Shown here piece after piece: positions 14,526 to 20,684 of a DNA stretch of 64,000 bases; the stretch's first letter is position 1; each line of letters opens with the position of its first letter. A program made the translations under genes and the position numbers. Location of the stretch: NCBI GenBank assembly GCA_035998445.1, contig DASYHQ010000033.1, forward strand, positions 124,001-188,000, written 5' to 3'. The stretch comes from Tepidisphaeraceae bacterium. GTDB taxonomy: Bacteria > Planctomycetota > Phycisphaerae > Tepidisphaerales > Tepidisphaeraceae. The notes beneath the pieces were generated by a model that was given only the letters and a program-made list of their open reading frames with translations, was not told where the DNA came from and did no database searches.

Positions 14526-15386
14526 TTGTTCAACGATAACCTGATGTCATTCGCGGTCCCACGGGGTTCGATTCCGCTGGCCGAGGCCACGTCGTTCTGG
14601 CAGCTCGTGGTGACGTCGATCAAGGCGTCGAGCGCGATCGAGAACGCCATCCTGCTGTTGCTGTTGATCTGCTCGATCGCGTCGTGGGGCATCGTTTTAT
14701 GGAAGCTGAAGGTGCTGCGTGAGGCGTGGGCCGGCAATCAACAGATGGCCGAGGCGTTCGTTGCCGCGACCGACCCGGCGGCGCTTAACGGTAAGGCCGG
14801 CGCGATGGCGGCGTCACCCAACGTCATCATCTACCAGGCCGCCCAAGACGCCGTTCGCGATGCCGGCGGCACCCGTGGCGCGTCCAACGGTCGGCTGACG
14901 GCCGGTGGCAATCCGCTGATGGCCAAGCGGGGGATCGAGGAACGCGTGCAGATGGCGATGGAGCACACGAGCCGCAGCGCGTTCACGCGCATGCACCGCG
15001 GGATGGACATCCTGGCCTCGATCGCCAGCTCGACGCCGTTCATCGGCCTGTTCGGCACGGTGCTGGGCATTATGCACACGTTCCAGGTGCTGGGCACCGC
15101 CAAGAGCGCGAGCCTGAACGTCGTGGCCCCCGGCATCGCCGCCGCTTTGATCGCCACCGCCGCCGGCCTCGCCGTCGCGATCCCGGCCGTGTTTGCCTAC
15201 AACTGGCTGACTGCCCGCATGGATGAACTGCAGGAGCAGGCCGACATGTTCATTGAGTCGCTCGGTCAATGGTTCGTAGGCACCGGGCTGTTCAAGCACG
15301 CGCCTGAAGTGAACCACCAGTCGCACGAAGCGACTGATCCGGTCATCGTCGGCGAAGGCGCGCACGTGCCGGGATCGCGCGAGTAG
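14526..15386 (+). CDS. exbB: ExbB/TolQ-type proton channel protein
   Basis: The ExbB/TolQ subunit forms with ExbD a proton-driven motor in the inner membrane. The 286 residues show TM1 at about 38-60 (AILLLLLICSIASWGIVLW), a cytoplasmic loop, then the signature TM2-TM3 region with TPFIGLFGTVLGIMHTFQ and GIAAALIATAAGLAVAIPA. The start is taken as TTG 14526, which has GGAAGGG seven to eight bases upstream; ATG 14544 is the alternative. ExbD and the giant protein follow at 69 and 66 bp on the same strand, forming a three-gene unit ended by a strong terminator. Confidence 0.93.
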   Translation: MFNDNLMSFAVPRGSIPLAEATSFWQLVVTSIKASSAIENAILLLLLICSIASWGIVLWKLKVLREAWAGNQQMAEAFVAATDPAALNGKAGAMAASPNVIIYQAAQDAVRDAGGTRGASNGRLTAGGNPLMAKRGIEERVQMAMEHTSRSAFTRMHRGMDILASIASSTPFIGLFGTVLGIMHTFQVLGTAKSASLNVVAPGIAAALIATAAGLAVAIPAVFAYNWLTARMDELQEQADMFIESLGQWFVGTGLFKHAPEVNHQSHEATDPVIVGEGAHVPGSRE

Positions 15387-15455: not shown

Positions 15456-15956
15456 ATGGGCATGTCACTTGGCGGTGGTGGTGGCGGTGGGAAGGGCAAG
15501 CGCCGGCGGCGCAGCGTGGCGGAGATCAACGTCACGCCCCTGGTAGACGTGATGCTCGTGCTGCTGGTGATCTTCATGATCACCGCGCCTACGCTTAAGG
15601 AAGGGTTCAGCGTCGAGATTCCGCAGGCGGAAGCGACGCAATCGGTGGCGATCGAGGACGCGCGCCTGGTAACGGTGACCGCCGACGGCCACGTGCTAAA
15701 GCCCGACGCCGACTCGGACGACAATCGCTACGATAAGCTGAGCGACCTCGTCGCCGACCTGCAGCGATACCGCACCGACACCGTCGCCGAGCAGAAGCAG
15801 CCCGTGGTGGTGATCGTGGGTGACCGCAACGCGACCTACGAGCGCATCATCCAGGTCTGGAACGCCGCCCGGTCGGCCGGCATCGGTCAGGTTAGTTTTC
15901 AGTTGGAACCGGGCGACGCGCCAGCCGAGGCGCAGGCGTCGGCTGGCAAGCTCTGA
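15456..15956 (+). CDS. exbD: ExbD/TolR-type proton channel protein
   Basis: ExbD pairs with ExbB and carries the essential membrane Asp. The 166-residue protein has a basic, glycine-rich cytoplasmic N-terminus, the TM segment EINVTPLVDVMLVLLVIFMI with the Asp in PLVD, and a periplasmic domain of the ExbD/TolR fold (VVIVGDRNATYERIIQVWNA; GIGQVSFQLEP). It sits between exbB and the giant anchored protein, so the three products probably form one energised complex. Confidence 0.95.
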   Translation: MGMSLGGGGGGGKGKRRRRSVAEINVTPLVDVMLVLLVIFMITAPTLKEGFSVEIPQAEATQSVAIEDARLVTVTADGHVLKPDADSDDNRYDKLSDLVADLQRYRTDTVAEQKQPVVVIVGDRNATYERIIQVWNAARSAGIGQVSFQLEPGDAPAEAQASAGKL

Positions 15957-16022
15957 TCCTGCTCGCGCGGTTTGGCTCGTCCGCTTGCGACGTTTCGCGC
16001 ATCTCATTCGATAGGACCGCTT

Positions 16023-19000
16023 ATGCAATCCGCCCCATCCACATCAAAACGTCCGACCGGTTGGAAGCGGCACTTCACCGGCCAGCGGCTGCGGATCTTC
16101 ATCGCGCTGTCGATCGCGGCGCACTTGTTTCTCGGGCTGTCGTGGGGTGTGCCGGCGTACGTGCAGGAACGCCGGGCCGAGGCGCAGCGGCAACAGGCAG
16201 CGATGCTGGAAGCCCAGCAGCGCGCCGCCGCCGAGGAAGCGGAAACCGCCGCCAAGACCAAGGCCGCGGCCGAGACGCTGGCCGACGTGAAGCGGCAGAC
16301 GCGCCGGGCGTTTGAATCGATGGTCGCGGCGCTGCCCCAACCGAAGAAGGACGACGTCTGGAACGAGATCGCGCCGAAACTCGACCCCGTTCAATCTCAA
16401 ATGGCCGACGCGCTGGCGGACCGCGCGACCACCGAGACCGACTTGCGCAACCTGCAGCGAGAGCTGAGCGGGCAGATGATCGACGCGGTCAACGGCGCCC
16501 TGAACGGCAACGCCAGCGAGACCGAAGCGGCGGCGTTCATGACGCTGGCGCGCGAGCGGCTGCTGCCTGAACTCGTGCGGCACTACAGCAACGGCATGCA
16601 GGACAAGGTCGCCCGCCCACTGCAAGGCGACGCGAAAAATTTCATCGAAACCGAGGCCAACGCTACCAAGACCACCATCGACGGCCTGAAGGCGGCACGC
16701 GACGACGCGGGCAAACGGTTGACGGCCATCCGCGAGAACCTCGATGCCGCCCAGAAGGCCACCGATATCGCTCACGATGCGATCGCACGCAACGCCGACG
16801 GCAAACGCAACGATGAGATTGCGAAGCTGCTGGCGAACGCAACAGAAAAGCTCGCCAGCGCCACAGCCGCGGGTGACGAGTTCAACAAGTTGATCGATTC
16901 GATCATCAAGACGGCATCCAGCACCACCGGCGCTGAATCGTTTGCCGATCGGCTTACGGAAGCCAAAACGCGGACGAACAGCGTGCTGGCGAGCGCGAAG
17001 CCGACGGCCGACGCACTGGCCAGGCAGGACACGACGGCCGCCGTGAAGGAACTCACCGCCGCCGCGCTGGCGGCGCGAACGCTAGGCACCGCCTGGGGCG
17101 CCGCCAACGACGAGGCGGGCCGCGCCCGCGATCGGGCGTTGGCCGCGAGCGGTTCGGCGGTCGGCGTCGCCGGTCGATCGACGGTGCGCGAGAACGTGCA
17201 ATCCACCTTCGGCGGCGCGTACAAGGAAAAGGCATCCGACCGAATCGCCGCAGTGCTGTCGGCCGCGTTCGCCAAGCGGTTGGAAGGGCGCGGCATCACC
17301 GATGCCGCGCTCGTGACCAAGGTCACCGCCGACGTGAAGGCGCTGTTGGAAGAGCGACTCGGCAGCGAGCCGCAGATCGTCACGTCCGCTATCAAGCCGT
17401 TGCTGACCTACGGCGAGGCCGACGCCGCTAAACCGTCCACCGGCGCCGGCATGACCGACGCGTTCGGTGATCGGTCGCAGCCGATCGTTACCGAGGGCAT
17501 CAACGCGGTCGTCATCGACGATGTGATCGACCAGCGCCTCGCCACGATCGCCGACGAGCAATCCAGCGATACGGCCCTCGACGCCGCCGCCGACCGAATC
17601 GCCACCGTCGCCAGCAACCAGAACGCCGGCCGATCGACTGGCGGCGGGTTTGCGGGCATCGGCAGTTCCGTGTTGACCAGCCTGCGGTCCGACGCAATCC
17701 AGCGGGCGGATGACACTCAGAACGGCATGGCCGCGGCCAACGGCACGGCCAGCACGCAGCCGTTCGTCGACCCACTGCTGACCGATGTGAAGCGTGACCT
17801 CACCGAGGCGCTGGCGCGCGACCTGAAGGGGCTGTTGGAGGGGAAGCTGAACGAAGACCAGGCCGAGAAGTTCGTGGAGACCGTCACCACCGCTGGCGAT
17901 GCGGACGTGTCGCGGCTGGCGGCCAACGTGCTGGACGGACGCGTGTCGGACAGCGACCTGGAGGCCAGCCGAACCGAGTTCAGCATGGCGATGATGGGCC
18001 ACGTGAACGATGCGCTCGACGCCACCGCGACCGCCGACGTGGAGGCCGAGCTATTCAAGCAGTTGACCGGCGACGCCGGCACGGCGCTGGCGGACAACAT
18101 CCGTAAGGCCGTGGCGAAAGAGGTGGGCAACGAGCTGGCCAGCGGGTTCGCCAATGCGGCCCGCGACGAACGGCAGGAGAGTGCCGCCAGCGTGCAGGCC
18201 CTGCGCGGCGCGATCGACACAATGCGCGACACAACGGCCAAGGCCAGCGAGATCGTCGAGGGCTCGCGCGTGCGCGCCCAGCGCGCCGCCAACGAGGCCG
18301 AAAAGGCCAAGCCCGATGCCCCGGCCGCCGACAGTGTCGCCGTCATCAAGGCCGAGCGCGAGCGGCTCACCGTCGTGCGGGAAACGCTGAGCGACGCCCG
18401 CACGACGCTCAAGGAAGCAACCGCGAATGCCAAGGTCGGCTCCGAGCGGCTTCGCGCTGCGCTGGGCGACCTCGAGACGTCGCTCGCGAACGTCACGCAG
18501 CGACTGGCCGACGCCGATGCCGCAGCTGCCAAGGGGGACGTCAAAGCTTTCGCCGGCGCCGTCGACGAGGTGAAGAAGGCGCTCGATCCGTACCGCAAGG
18601 CCGTCACCACGGCCACGACCAGCTTGCAGAGCGAGCCGGCCCAGGCGGGCGCGCAGTTACTGAAGGCAGCGGAATCGACGGTCGCGAAGGATGGCGAGGA
18701 GAGCAAGGTGGCGTCGAAGGTGAACGCCGCGTTCGAAGAAGAATTTCGCCAGGCGACGCTGCCACGGCTGACCGATCAGATCGTCAACGCCTACAAGGAG
18801 AAGATGGCCAAGGCGGGCGTGGACACCGAGGCGGGTGAGGCGGCGCTGCGCGAGAAGGTCGCCGCTGAACTGCAGAAGCAGGTGTCGACCGGCACATCGG
18901 TCGCCGACGGCGCGCTAGCCGAGGTGGACCGTCGCGGCACGTTTAAGGAAGCCGCCAAGGCGACGGGCGAACCCGATGCCGCGATGATTGAAAAAGCCAA

Positions 19001-20684
19001 CGCTGCCGCCGACAACGCGGTGAAGGCGGGCGTCACCACGGCGCTCGGTGGCAACCGTGGTGGGGCGGAGGTCGGCAAGGCACTGAGCGCCGTGAAGGGG
19101 CCCAGCCAATCGATCCTGGAGTTGAAGGACAAGTTCGCACGAATGGAAGGCCAATTGCGTGGTGGCCGTGGTGGCCTGTTGGATGAACCGGCCGCCGACG
19201 CCGAACTTGTCGAAGGCGAACAGCCCGGCAGCGTAGCGGGCGTGCGAAAGAAGTGGCAGTCGATCCTCGCCAGCGCCGCCGGCGCCGGTGAAGGCAACGG
19301 CACCGGCAGCGCCGGGGAGGCGGGTGCGAGTGGCGCGCAGGGCAGCGGCTGGCGATGGGGTCGCGGCGTCAACCCGTTTGGCCATTGGGTAGATGAGGAG
19401 CAGTATCAGGCGCTCATCGCCAAGCTGAAGGATCGCGACAAGCAACTGACCGGCGGCCAGGCGTTCGCGCGCGTCGGCGCGACGGGCGATGCGTCCAACG
19501 CCGATGCCGATGCCGACATCGTTCGCCCGGCGACCATCGTCGCGCCGACCACTCAGCCTGCCAGCAAGGCCGAGGGGGATCAACCGTACGTGCCCACCTT
19601 CAAGTCGCTCGCCTTCGCGACCGCGCCGTACCTCACCGATTCGATCAAGATCGACGGCAGCTTCGACGACTGGAAGGACATCCCCGCGCTGCAGATGAAG
19701 CCGGAACGTTTCGACGGCACGGGCCAGGAAGGTCTGACCGTCGCCGACACCGTGACGGCCAAGGTGGCGTGGGACAAACATGGACTTTACTTCATGCTCG
19801 ACATGGCCGACCCCGACCGCAGCATGAAGACCACGGCCGCGGGCACGTTTTGGGTGGGCGACACGTTCGAGATCTTCCTCGACACGATGAACTCGAAGGA
19901 GAACGCCCGGGCTCGTGGCGCCGGCCAGCAGTTCTGGGTGTGGCCGTTGGGCAGCGTGGATGACCCGACGCTGCCGGGCGGCGAATCGTTCGTGGACGGG
20001 TATTCGTCGTTCAAATTTGTACCCTTCAAGTCGCACCAGATGCAGCGCGCGATGCGCAAGACCGACGCCGGCTACCAGCTCGAGTGCCGCGTCGACACCA
20101 TTCACATTCGCGATGCCGATTTGGCGCCCGGCAAGATCCTCGGCCTGAACATGACGGCCGAAACGGGCACGCGCGTCCACTACTACTGGACCGCTTCCAA
20201 GGCCACCGCCACCTTCGCGCGGCCCGATACTTGGGGCGACCTGCTGCTGGGCGGCGCCGATGGCCGGCTGGAGATTCCCGAGCGCCTCAGCGATGAAGAC
20301 GGCGCGGGCGATGCCACCCAGGCCACCTCGTCGTTTCTCGTCGGCCAGCCGCTGCGCTTGCGCGTGAGCGACGGCGATATGAACCTCAACAGTCGCATCG
20401 CCGACAAGGTGATGGTGACGGTCGCCAACCCGTCGAACGGCGACTCGCAGGTCGCCATCCTGAAGGAGACCGGTGCCGACACCGGCATCTTCGAAGGCGC
20501 GATCCGCACCGTGCTCGACATCGGCGAAAAGCAACCGGGCGCTGTGTCCGTCTTCGACGGCCAAAAGCTGCGTGTTACCTACGTCGATCAGGCCCGCGCC
20601 AACGGCGCGCGCGACGCGAAGGTCGTCTTCGAGGCCAAGGCCGGCTCGCCGGTGATCGGTGTCGTCGCGGCGGGGGCGAACTGA
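16023..20684 (+). CDS. Giant TonB/TolA-like anchored protein with CBM9-like C-terminus
   Basis: I see 1553 residues from ATG 16023; the frame is open upstream to 15972. Residues 1-24 are basic and cytoplasmic; residues 25-45 form one membrane helix containing S30-x3-H34, the Ser/His spacing of TonB and TolA helices that contact ExbB/ExbD. Residues 46 to about 1080 are Ala-, Lys-, Glu- and Asp-rich, predicted helical and partly coiled coil. A Gly-rich hinge follows near 1085-1120. About residues 1190-1420 resemble a family 9 carbohydrate-binding (DOMON-like) domain: IKIDGSFDDWKDIPAL, VAWDKHGLYFMLDMAD and GDTFEIFLDT. The last 120 residues are an Ig-like module (DGDMNLNSRIADKV, LKETGADTGIFEGAI). 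By position and topology it is the likely mechanical partner of the ExbB/ExbD motor; ligand and role are unknown. No TonB, TolB or Pal gene is nearby. Confidence 0.85.
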   Translation: MQSAPSTSKRPTGWKRHFTGQRLRIFIALSIAAHLFLGLSWGVPAYVQERRAEAQRQQAAMLEAQQRAAAEEAETAAKTKAAAETLADVKRQTRRAFESMVAALPQPKKDDVWNEIAPKLDPVQSQMADALADRATTETDLRNLQRELSGQMIDAVNGALNGNASETEAAAFMTLARERLLPELVRHYSNGMQDKVARPLQGDAKNFIETEANATKTTIDGLKAARDDAGKRLTAIRENLDAAQKATDIAHDAIARNADGKRNDEIAKLLANATEKLASATAAGDEFNKLIDSIIKTASSTTGAESFADRLTEAKTRTNSVLASAKPTADALARQDTTAAVKELTAAALAARTLGTAWGAANDEAGRARDRALAASGSAVGVAGRSTVRENVQSTFGGAYKEKASDRIAAVLSAAFAKRLEGRGITDAALVTKVTADVKALLEERLGSEPQIVTSAIKPLLTYGEADAAKPSTGAGMTDAFGDRSQPIVTEGINAVVIDDVIDQRLATIADEQSSDTALDAAADRIATVASNQNAGRSTGGGFAGIGSSVLTSLRSDAIQRADDTQNGMAAANGTASTQPFVDPLLTDVKRDLTEALARDLKGLLEGKLNEDQAEKFVETVTTAGDADVSRLAANVLDGRVSDSDLEASRTEFSMAMMGHVNDALDATATADVEAELFKQLTGDAGTALADNIRKAVAKEVGNELASGFANAARDERQESAASVQALRGAIDTMRDTTAKASEIVEGSRVRAQRAANEAEKAKPDAPAADSVAVIKAERERLTVVRETLSDARTTLKEATANAKVGSERLRAALGDLETSLANVTQRLADADAAAAKGDVKAFAGAVDEVKKALDPYRKAVTTATTSLQSEPAQAGAQLLKAAESTVAKDGEESKVASKVNAAFEEEFRQATLPRLTDQIVNAYKEKMAKAGVDTEAGEAALREKVAAELQKQVSTGTSVADGALAEVDRRGTFKEAAKATGEPDAAMIEKANAAADNAVKAGVTTALGGNRGGAEVGKALSAVKGPSQSILELKDKFARMEGQLRGGRGGLLDEPAADAELVEGEQPGSVAGVRKKWQSILASAAGAGEGNGTGSAGEAGASGAQGSGWRWGRGVNPFGHWVDEEQYQALIAKLKDRDKQLTGGQAFARVGATGDASNADADADIVRPATIVAPTTQPASKAEGDQPYVPTFKSLAFATAPYLTDSIKIDGSFDDWKDIPALQMKPERFDGTGQEGLTVADTVTAKVAWDKHGLYFMLDMADPDRSMKTTAAGTFWVGDTFEIFLDTMNSKENARARGAGQQFWVWPLGSVDDPTLPGGESFVDGYSSFKFVPFKSHQMQRAMRKTDAGYQLECRVDTIHIRDADLAPGKILGLNMTAETGTRVHYYWTASKATATFARPDTWGDLLLGGADGRLEIPERLSDEDGAGDATQATSSFLVGQPLRLRVSDGDMNLNSRIADKVMVTVANPSNGDSQVAILKETGADTGIFEGAIRTVLDIGEKQPGAVSVFDGQKLRVTYVDQARANGARDAKVVFEAKAGSPVIGVVAAGAN

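Follow-up and report, generated by a model that had tools for sequence, protein, structure and literature searches.

Gene Content and Organization of the Locus

Three genes lay in the same direction within the window, the 64,000-nucleotide stretch of DNA analyzed here, in the order ExbB, ExbD and a very long third gene; these genes and all the features described within them are on the + strand. The first gene (14526..15386) encoded an ExbB/TolQ-type proton-channel subunit of 286 aa (PF01618, 115 bits, E 2.4e-33), for which tolQ was the top NCBIfam match, at a score under the cut-off of that model. The second (15456..15956) encoded an ExbD/TolR-type subunit of 166 aa (PF02472, 88 bits, E 6.6e-25) that kept the proton-binding Asp, as read by motif (TPLVDVMLVLL), and this residue was visible in the ExbD subunits read. 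The third encoded an anchored protein of 1553 aa (16023..20684), referred to as the arm. Its reading frame extended over 15972–20684, and the ATG at 16023 was taken as the best start because the N-terminus then lines up with that of its G008 ortholog, G008 being another genome of the same taxonomic family; a short AGGA upstream of this ATG further supported the choice. Among named sequences, the locus was closest to contig CAIQIQ010000164.1 (uncultured Phycisphaerales), in line with a planctomycete genome of Phycisphaerales type.

The arm was organized as an N-terminal membrane helix, an Ala-rich shaft, a Gly-rich hinge, a CBM9 domain and an Ig-like tail. The single membrane helix (IFIALSIAAHLFLGLSWGV, 16095..16151) contained an S30-xxx-H34 motif and was followed by the long shaft (16152..19274), which was 20% Ala and Pro-poor and is probably mostly helical, judging from this composition rather than from a prediction tool. 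Shaft length varied among relatives from about 540 to 1150 aa, and a single-sequence search of the shaft against the PDB returned no match at E up to 0.1. The hinge (AGAGEGNGTGSAGEAGASGAQGSG, approximately residues 1085–1113, 19275..19361) was read from the sequence. It had been named in the original prediction together with the segments IKIDGSFDDWKD and GDTFEIFLDT, both of which were present as quoted.

The CBM9 Module and Its Putative Sugar Site

The original prediction of a CBM9-like domain beyond the hinge was borne out. Residues 1210–1410 (19650..20252) belonged to family CBM9_1 (PF06452), with 49.8 bits against a cut-off of 23.4 (E 4.9e-13), and the same match reached 54 bits in a whole-genome search. 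A profile of 24 tips, each combining CBM9 and Ig-like modules, retrieved the solved CBM9 structures 1i82 (E 1.5e-14) and 7nwn (E 2.2e-12), i.e., CBM9-2 of Thermotoga maritima Xyn10A and CBM9.3 of Caldicellulosiruptor. Structure prediction, for which the input was three sequences only, pointed the same way: a CBM9-only AlphaFold model of low to modest confidence (pLDDT 57, pTM 0.63), taken as support only, matched sugar-binding CBM9 modules best (Foldseek, 7nwn 3.8e-6 and 1i82 1.1e-5; VIA Z 10.9), while a model of the whole tip from the three sequences was unusable (pLDDT 41).

In Thermotoga CBM9-2 the sugar is contacted by Trp71, Trp175, and Gln96, with Tyr tolerated at the first position (PMC8280721). 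The window protein kept two of these three residues, W1277 (19851..19853) being the equivalent of the clamp residue Trp71 and Q1303 (19929..19931) that of the sugar-bonding Gln96, and had Phe for Trp at the position of the second clamp residue, Trp175 (F1398, 20214..20216), so that an aromatic clamp and a Gln96 equivalent were both present. Apart from this Phe, the arm module differed from the 1i82 and 7nwn modules in that the latter are parts of secreted xylanases. Across the 24 tips, the Trp71 position was always Trp or Tyr (24/24) and the Gln96 position was Gln in 20, whereas the Trp175 position was aromatic in 10 and non-aromatic in 14. The window protein thus conserves the putative sugar site well and many relatives only half of it, so that the ligand may differ among relatives. 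These residues suggest that the arm tip would bind a glycan. Against this, a CBM9 without the clamp bound none of the natural polysaccharides tested (PMC8280721), and CBM9-type folds serve other ligands as well.

The nearest CBM9 domains in the sampled relatives were C-terminal in long secreted glycosidase-like proteins, a resemblance judged by eye, Pfam giving only CBM9 in the one tested. They included a protein of this genome (L082:2440-4800, contig C55), secreted and with a C-terminal CBM9, whose gene adjoins an elongation-factor-G-like gene; similar proteins carrying these nearest CBM9 relatives of the tip were widespread among genomes of that family. A C-terminal CBM9 domain was also seen in a Kiritimatiellota protein (L045:724-2265) that appeared FecR-like by eye.

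The Ig-Like End Module

The next ∼115 residues (∼20304..20648) formed the Ig-like end module that had been predicted, an S-layer-type module with DxDMNL and ETGxxTGxFEGxI signatures. A Pfam search of this module gave no match; against NCBIfam NF052345, an anammox S-layer family, it gave a local match (E 8e-7) that covered one module only, scoring 26 bits where the cut-off for full-length membership is 1400. The profile of 24 tips matched the Ig-like repeats of PDB 8c8k with E 7.7e-17, several repeats being matched (best repeat E 4.5e-11). This entry, itself titled ‘Cell surface protein’, we take to be the Nitrosopumilus S-layer protein. The end module of the window alone matched 8c8k at only E 0.09, and the link to this structure therefore rests on the family profile. 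The arm carried one Ig-like module that shares its signatures with the repeats of 8c8k and of the Kustd1514 family (NF052345); however, S-layer proteins form a self-assembling lattice, whereas in the arm a single module ends an inner-membrane protein. Furthermore, secreted subtilisin-like proteins and a giant protein with TPR repeats contained the same module, and its presence is thus no proof of S-layer binding. In genome G003, a giant of 1658 aa that combines TPR repeats with four Ig modules of the S-layer type was encoded beside ExbB- and ExbD-like genes and a TPR protein (L042:2894-10854), and is another motor-adjacent carrier of the module.

Distribution of the Arm Among Planctomycetota

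Within the same taxonomic family, G008 was the one other genome with a full ExbB–ExbD–arm set, and the full tip occurred in 2 of 26 genomes. In a two-way comparison of the window with G008, the tip was better conserved (41% identity) than the shaft (24%). A strong full-length match was found in only 2 of the 397 genomes of the class sample, again the window genome and G008. In the phylum sample (392 genomes), the CBM9+Ig tip was found at 22 further loci in 15 genomes from other families. The finding is therefore wider than originally predicted, the tip recurring at 22 + 2 loci beyond the window and giving 25 in all (22 from the phylum search, G008, L044, and the window), in a search made within Planctomycetota and mostly on metagenome assemblies.

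Three of the 25 loci were truncated by contig edges before the region where motor genes would show. Of the 22 informative loci, 20 had ExbB and ExbD adjoining the arm, upstream or downstream of it, counting two (L124 and L126) with one extra gene between the motor pair and the arm; at the remaining two (L044 and L119) ExbBD was not nearby. Gene orders differed among loci, and the association of arm and motor has therefore been kept through rearrangement. One genome (G471) encoded five arms, every one of them accompanied by a separate ExbB/ExbD pair. Even in the two groups where the set was common it was not universal (5/7 and 9/23 genomes with any match). Distances among tips were correlated with those of ExbD (r 0.81) and ExbB (r 0.63; Mantel p 0.0005, 17 loci), as expected for co-inherited parts, although this could reflect plain vertical inheritance of all three. 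Two arms (L111:4880-8532 and L108:7018-9642) seemed split over two frames or shortened, possibly because of frameshifts or assembly errors.

Proposed Motor Docking and Comparison With Known Systems

TonB and TolA are the classic proton-driven arms of the cell envelope. They dock on their motors through a helix of the SHLS type, in which the His is essential (Williams-Jones et al., 2025; PMC12204202). The helix of the window arm conformed to the SxxxH pattern of TolA and TonB (S30-IAA-H34). SxxxH lay within the helix in 16 of 19 readable arm N-termini, aligned at one column in 15 of them, compared with a background of about 4/149 (∼3%) among unrelated N-terminal hydrophobic segments from the same loci (13/158 before subtraction of the segments from seven arms and from two further likely transducers). 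The motif suggests that the arm would dock on the ExbB/ExbD motor through this helix. It was missing at three loci. The L044 protein (L044:7436-9007), with no motor nearby, was short and consisted of a zinc-ribbon-like N-terminus, a membrane helix, a K/E/P-rich stalk and the CBM9 and Ig tip. The other two arms (L124:741-8846 and L126:1112-8762) followed an ExbB-ExbD-ExbD set and a ∼865-aa protein, and the L124 arm had a zinc-ribbon-like N-terminus. These variants indicate that the CBM9+Ig tip pair can sit on different anchors.

The arm had been described as TolA-like, and this held for the anchor and the predicted coupling to a motor but not for the tip. The SxxxH helix, the adjoining ExbB/ExbD-type motor and the succession of anchor, shaft, and tip were common to all, whereas TolA and TonB end in a TolA C-terminal or TonB_C domain and the arm in CBM9 and Ig-like modules. 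At E up to 1, Pfam detected neither TolA domain III nor TonB_C in this protein, and the arm is not a TolA/TonB member because this C-terminal domain is absent; by analogy, it probably works like them. No TonB_C protein above the cut-off was found in this genome. The sole match, below the cut-off, was an orphan TonB-like protein with an SxxxH helix on contig C41 (L081:4431-5468), which has no ExbB nearby and so might use a motor in common with another system.

Motors of this kind are already known to bear tips other than TonB, in the von Willebrand-type (vWA) force transducers described from Planctomycetes and other phyla (Williams-Jones et al., 2025; PMC12204202). As presented there, these resemble the arm in having ExbB/TolQ and ExbD/TolR neighbors, a single helix with an SHLS-type motif, a periplasmic arm and a non-TonB globular tip, but their tip is a vWA domain and their linker is ∼100 residues long, against 540–1150 in the CBM9 arms. 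The arm has no C-terminal vWA domain, its tip being CBM9 and Ig-like, and section 8 of that paper describes neither a CBM9 nor an Ig tip. No paper treating CBM9 together with ExbD and TonB was found in the open-access PMC literature. A second ExbB cluster of this genome (L080:1898-8906, contig C45) resembles the published vWA transducer clusters. Besides ExbB, it encoded two ExbD subunits, a 961-aa protein that matched TPR weakly, and the vWA protein of this genome, whose vWA domain was likewise weak.

Proposed Function and Alternative Explanations

The domain architecture of the arm, the homologies of its modules, its linkage to motor genes and its conservation across the phylum are consistent with a motor-driven force transducer encoded by the three genes, whose tip grips a glycan or glycan-bearing partner on which the motor pulls; we assign this reading a probability of roughly 0.6. 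ExbB and ExbD would make up an inner-membrane motor driven by protons, on which the arm would dock by its single SxxxH helix in the manner of TonB and TolA. The long, probably helical shaft would span the periplasm, and the hinge would bear the two-domain tip, a predicted CBM9 fold with most of the Thermotoga CBM9-2 sugar clamp followed by the S-layer-type Ig-like module. Most likely, the target gripped by the tip and pulled by the motor would be either a partner of the outer envelope that bears glycans or a polysaccharide, whether captured or part of the envelope itself. A motor combined with an arm bearing sugar-binding-type and S-layer-type modules implies that these bacteria probably pull on an envelope glycan, for a purpose that is most plausibly accessory. 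The original proposal of a motor-driven arm is thereby favored by the ExbB/ExbD neighbors and the SxxxH helix, and its glycan or S-layer partner would fit both tip modules by homology; its haem-bearing partner found no such backing.

Such a partner would require a haem-binding or electron-transfer tip of the DOMON or EBDH-gamma type, which we regard as highly improbable. The fold is indeed shared with haem-binding EBDH gamma (ethylbenzene dehydrogenase 2ivf_C, Foldseek E 2.9e-4, VIA Z 10.4), and Kuenenia nitrite oxidoreductase 7b04_C reached Z 9.4 against the CBM9 model. Nevertheless, the arm CBM9 was nearer in sequence to sugar-binding CBM9, and Pfam at E up to 1 gave only CBM9_1, MUN, and UL6 on the arm, with no EB_dh or DOMON. 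Nor was any axial ligand conserved (Met, His, or Lys): within the CBM9 columns, His, Met, and Cys each occurred in under half of the 24 tips at any position, and only K1292 (13/24) and K1194 (12/24) reached half or more. The DOMON/haem identity was consequently rejected, in the absence of a family match and of conserved ligands.

The arm could instead be the planctomycete equivalent of TolA, steadying the outer membrane or cell wall through its hold on a protein, for instance a Pal-like lipoprotein, with CBM9 as a mere protein-binding scaffold. TolQ and TolR were the best NCBIfam matches of the motor subunits, a Pal-like OmpA-domain lipoprotein is encoded on the contig of the window (C33:234715; L105:6365-7033), and the lack of a TonB_C protein above the cut-off also agrees with such a role. 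Yet the conserved aromatic of the sugar clamp speaks against a mere scaffold, and the patchy distribution and the five copies in G471, each with its own ExbB/ExbD, favor an accessory, target-specific role in handling polysaccharides or surface glycans, which leaves this housekeeping role unlikely. Quite unlikely, too, is a role in the surface layer or in adhesion, in which the Ig module would become part of a planctomycete surface layer or matrix whose glycans are held by CBM9, while the motor would tension the lattice or drive movement or attachment. In its favor, the Nitrosopumilus S-layer is built from modules of the same type as the tail, and this type recurs in the anammox S-layer family, whose protein is heavily O-glycosylated according to the title of PMC5088730. 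However, the occurrence of the module in subtilisin-like proteins and the TPR giant marks it as a general surface module, an S-layer gene was not identified in this genome, and the crossing of the outer membrane by the arm is left without explanation.

Biological Significance

By analogy with the vWA transducers (PMC12204202), the arm, which would pull on a glycan, represents a motor-driven force transducer with a new class of tip. If true, several planctomycete lineages possess a further class, homologous to glycan-binding and S-layer modules, beside TonB/TolA and the vWA arms described in 2025. Planctomycetes have an enlarged periplasm, and their uptake of dextran is energy-dependent and CCCP-sensitive, by a mechanism that is unclear (PMC5394234). 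It is conceivable, if doubtful, that they haul polysaccharides through this periplasm by proton motive force, using dedicated ExbBD motors and CBM9-tipped arms, which would help explain the energy-dependent uptake of large polysaccharides (PMC5394234). While a link of the CBM9-arm family to dextran uptake is speculation, the family is a tangible candidate, amenable to gene deletion, for a motor that acts on glycans.
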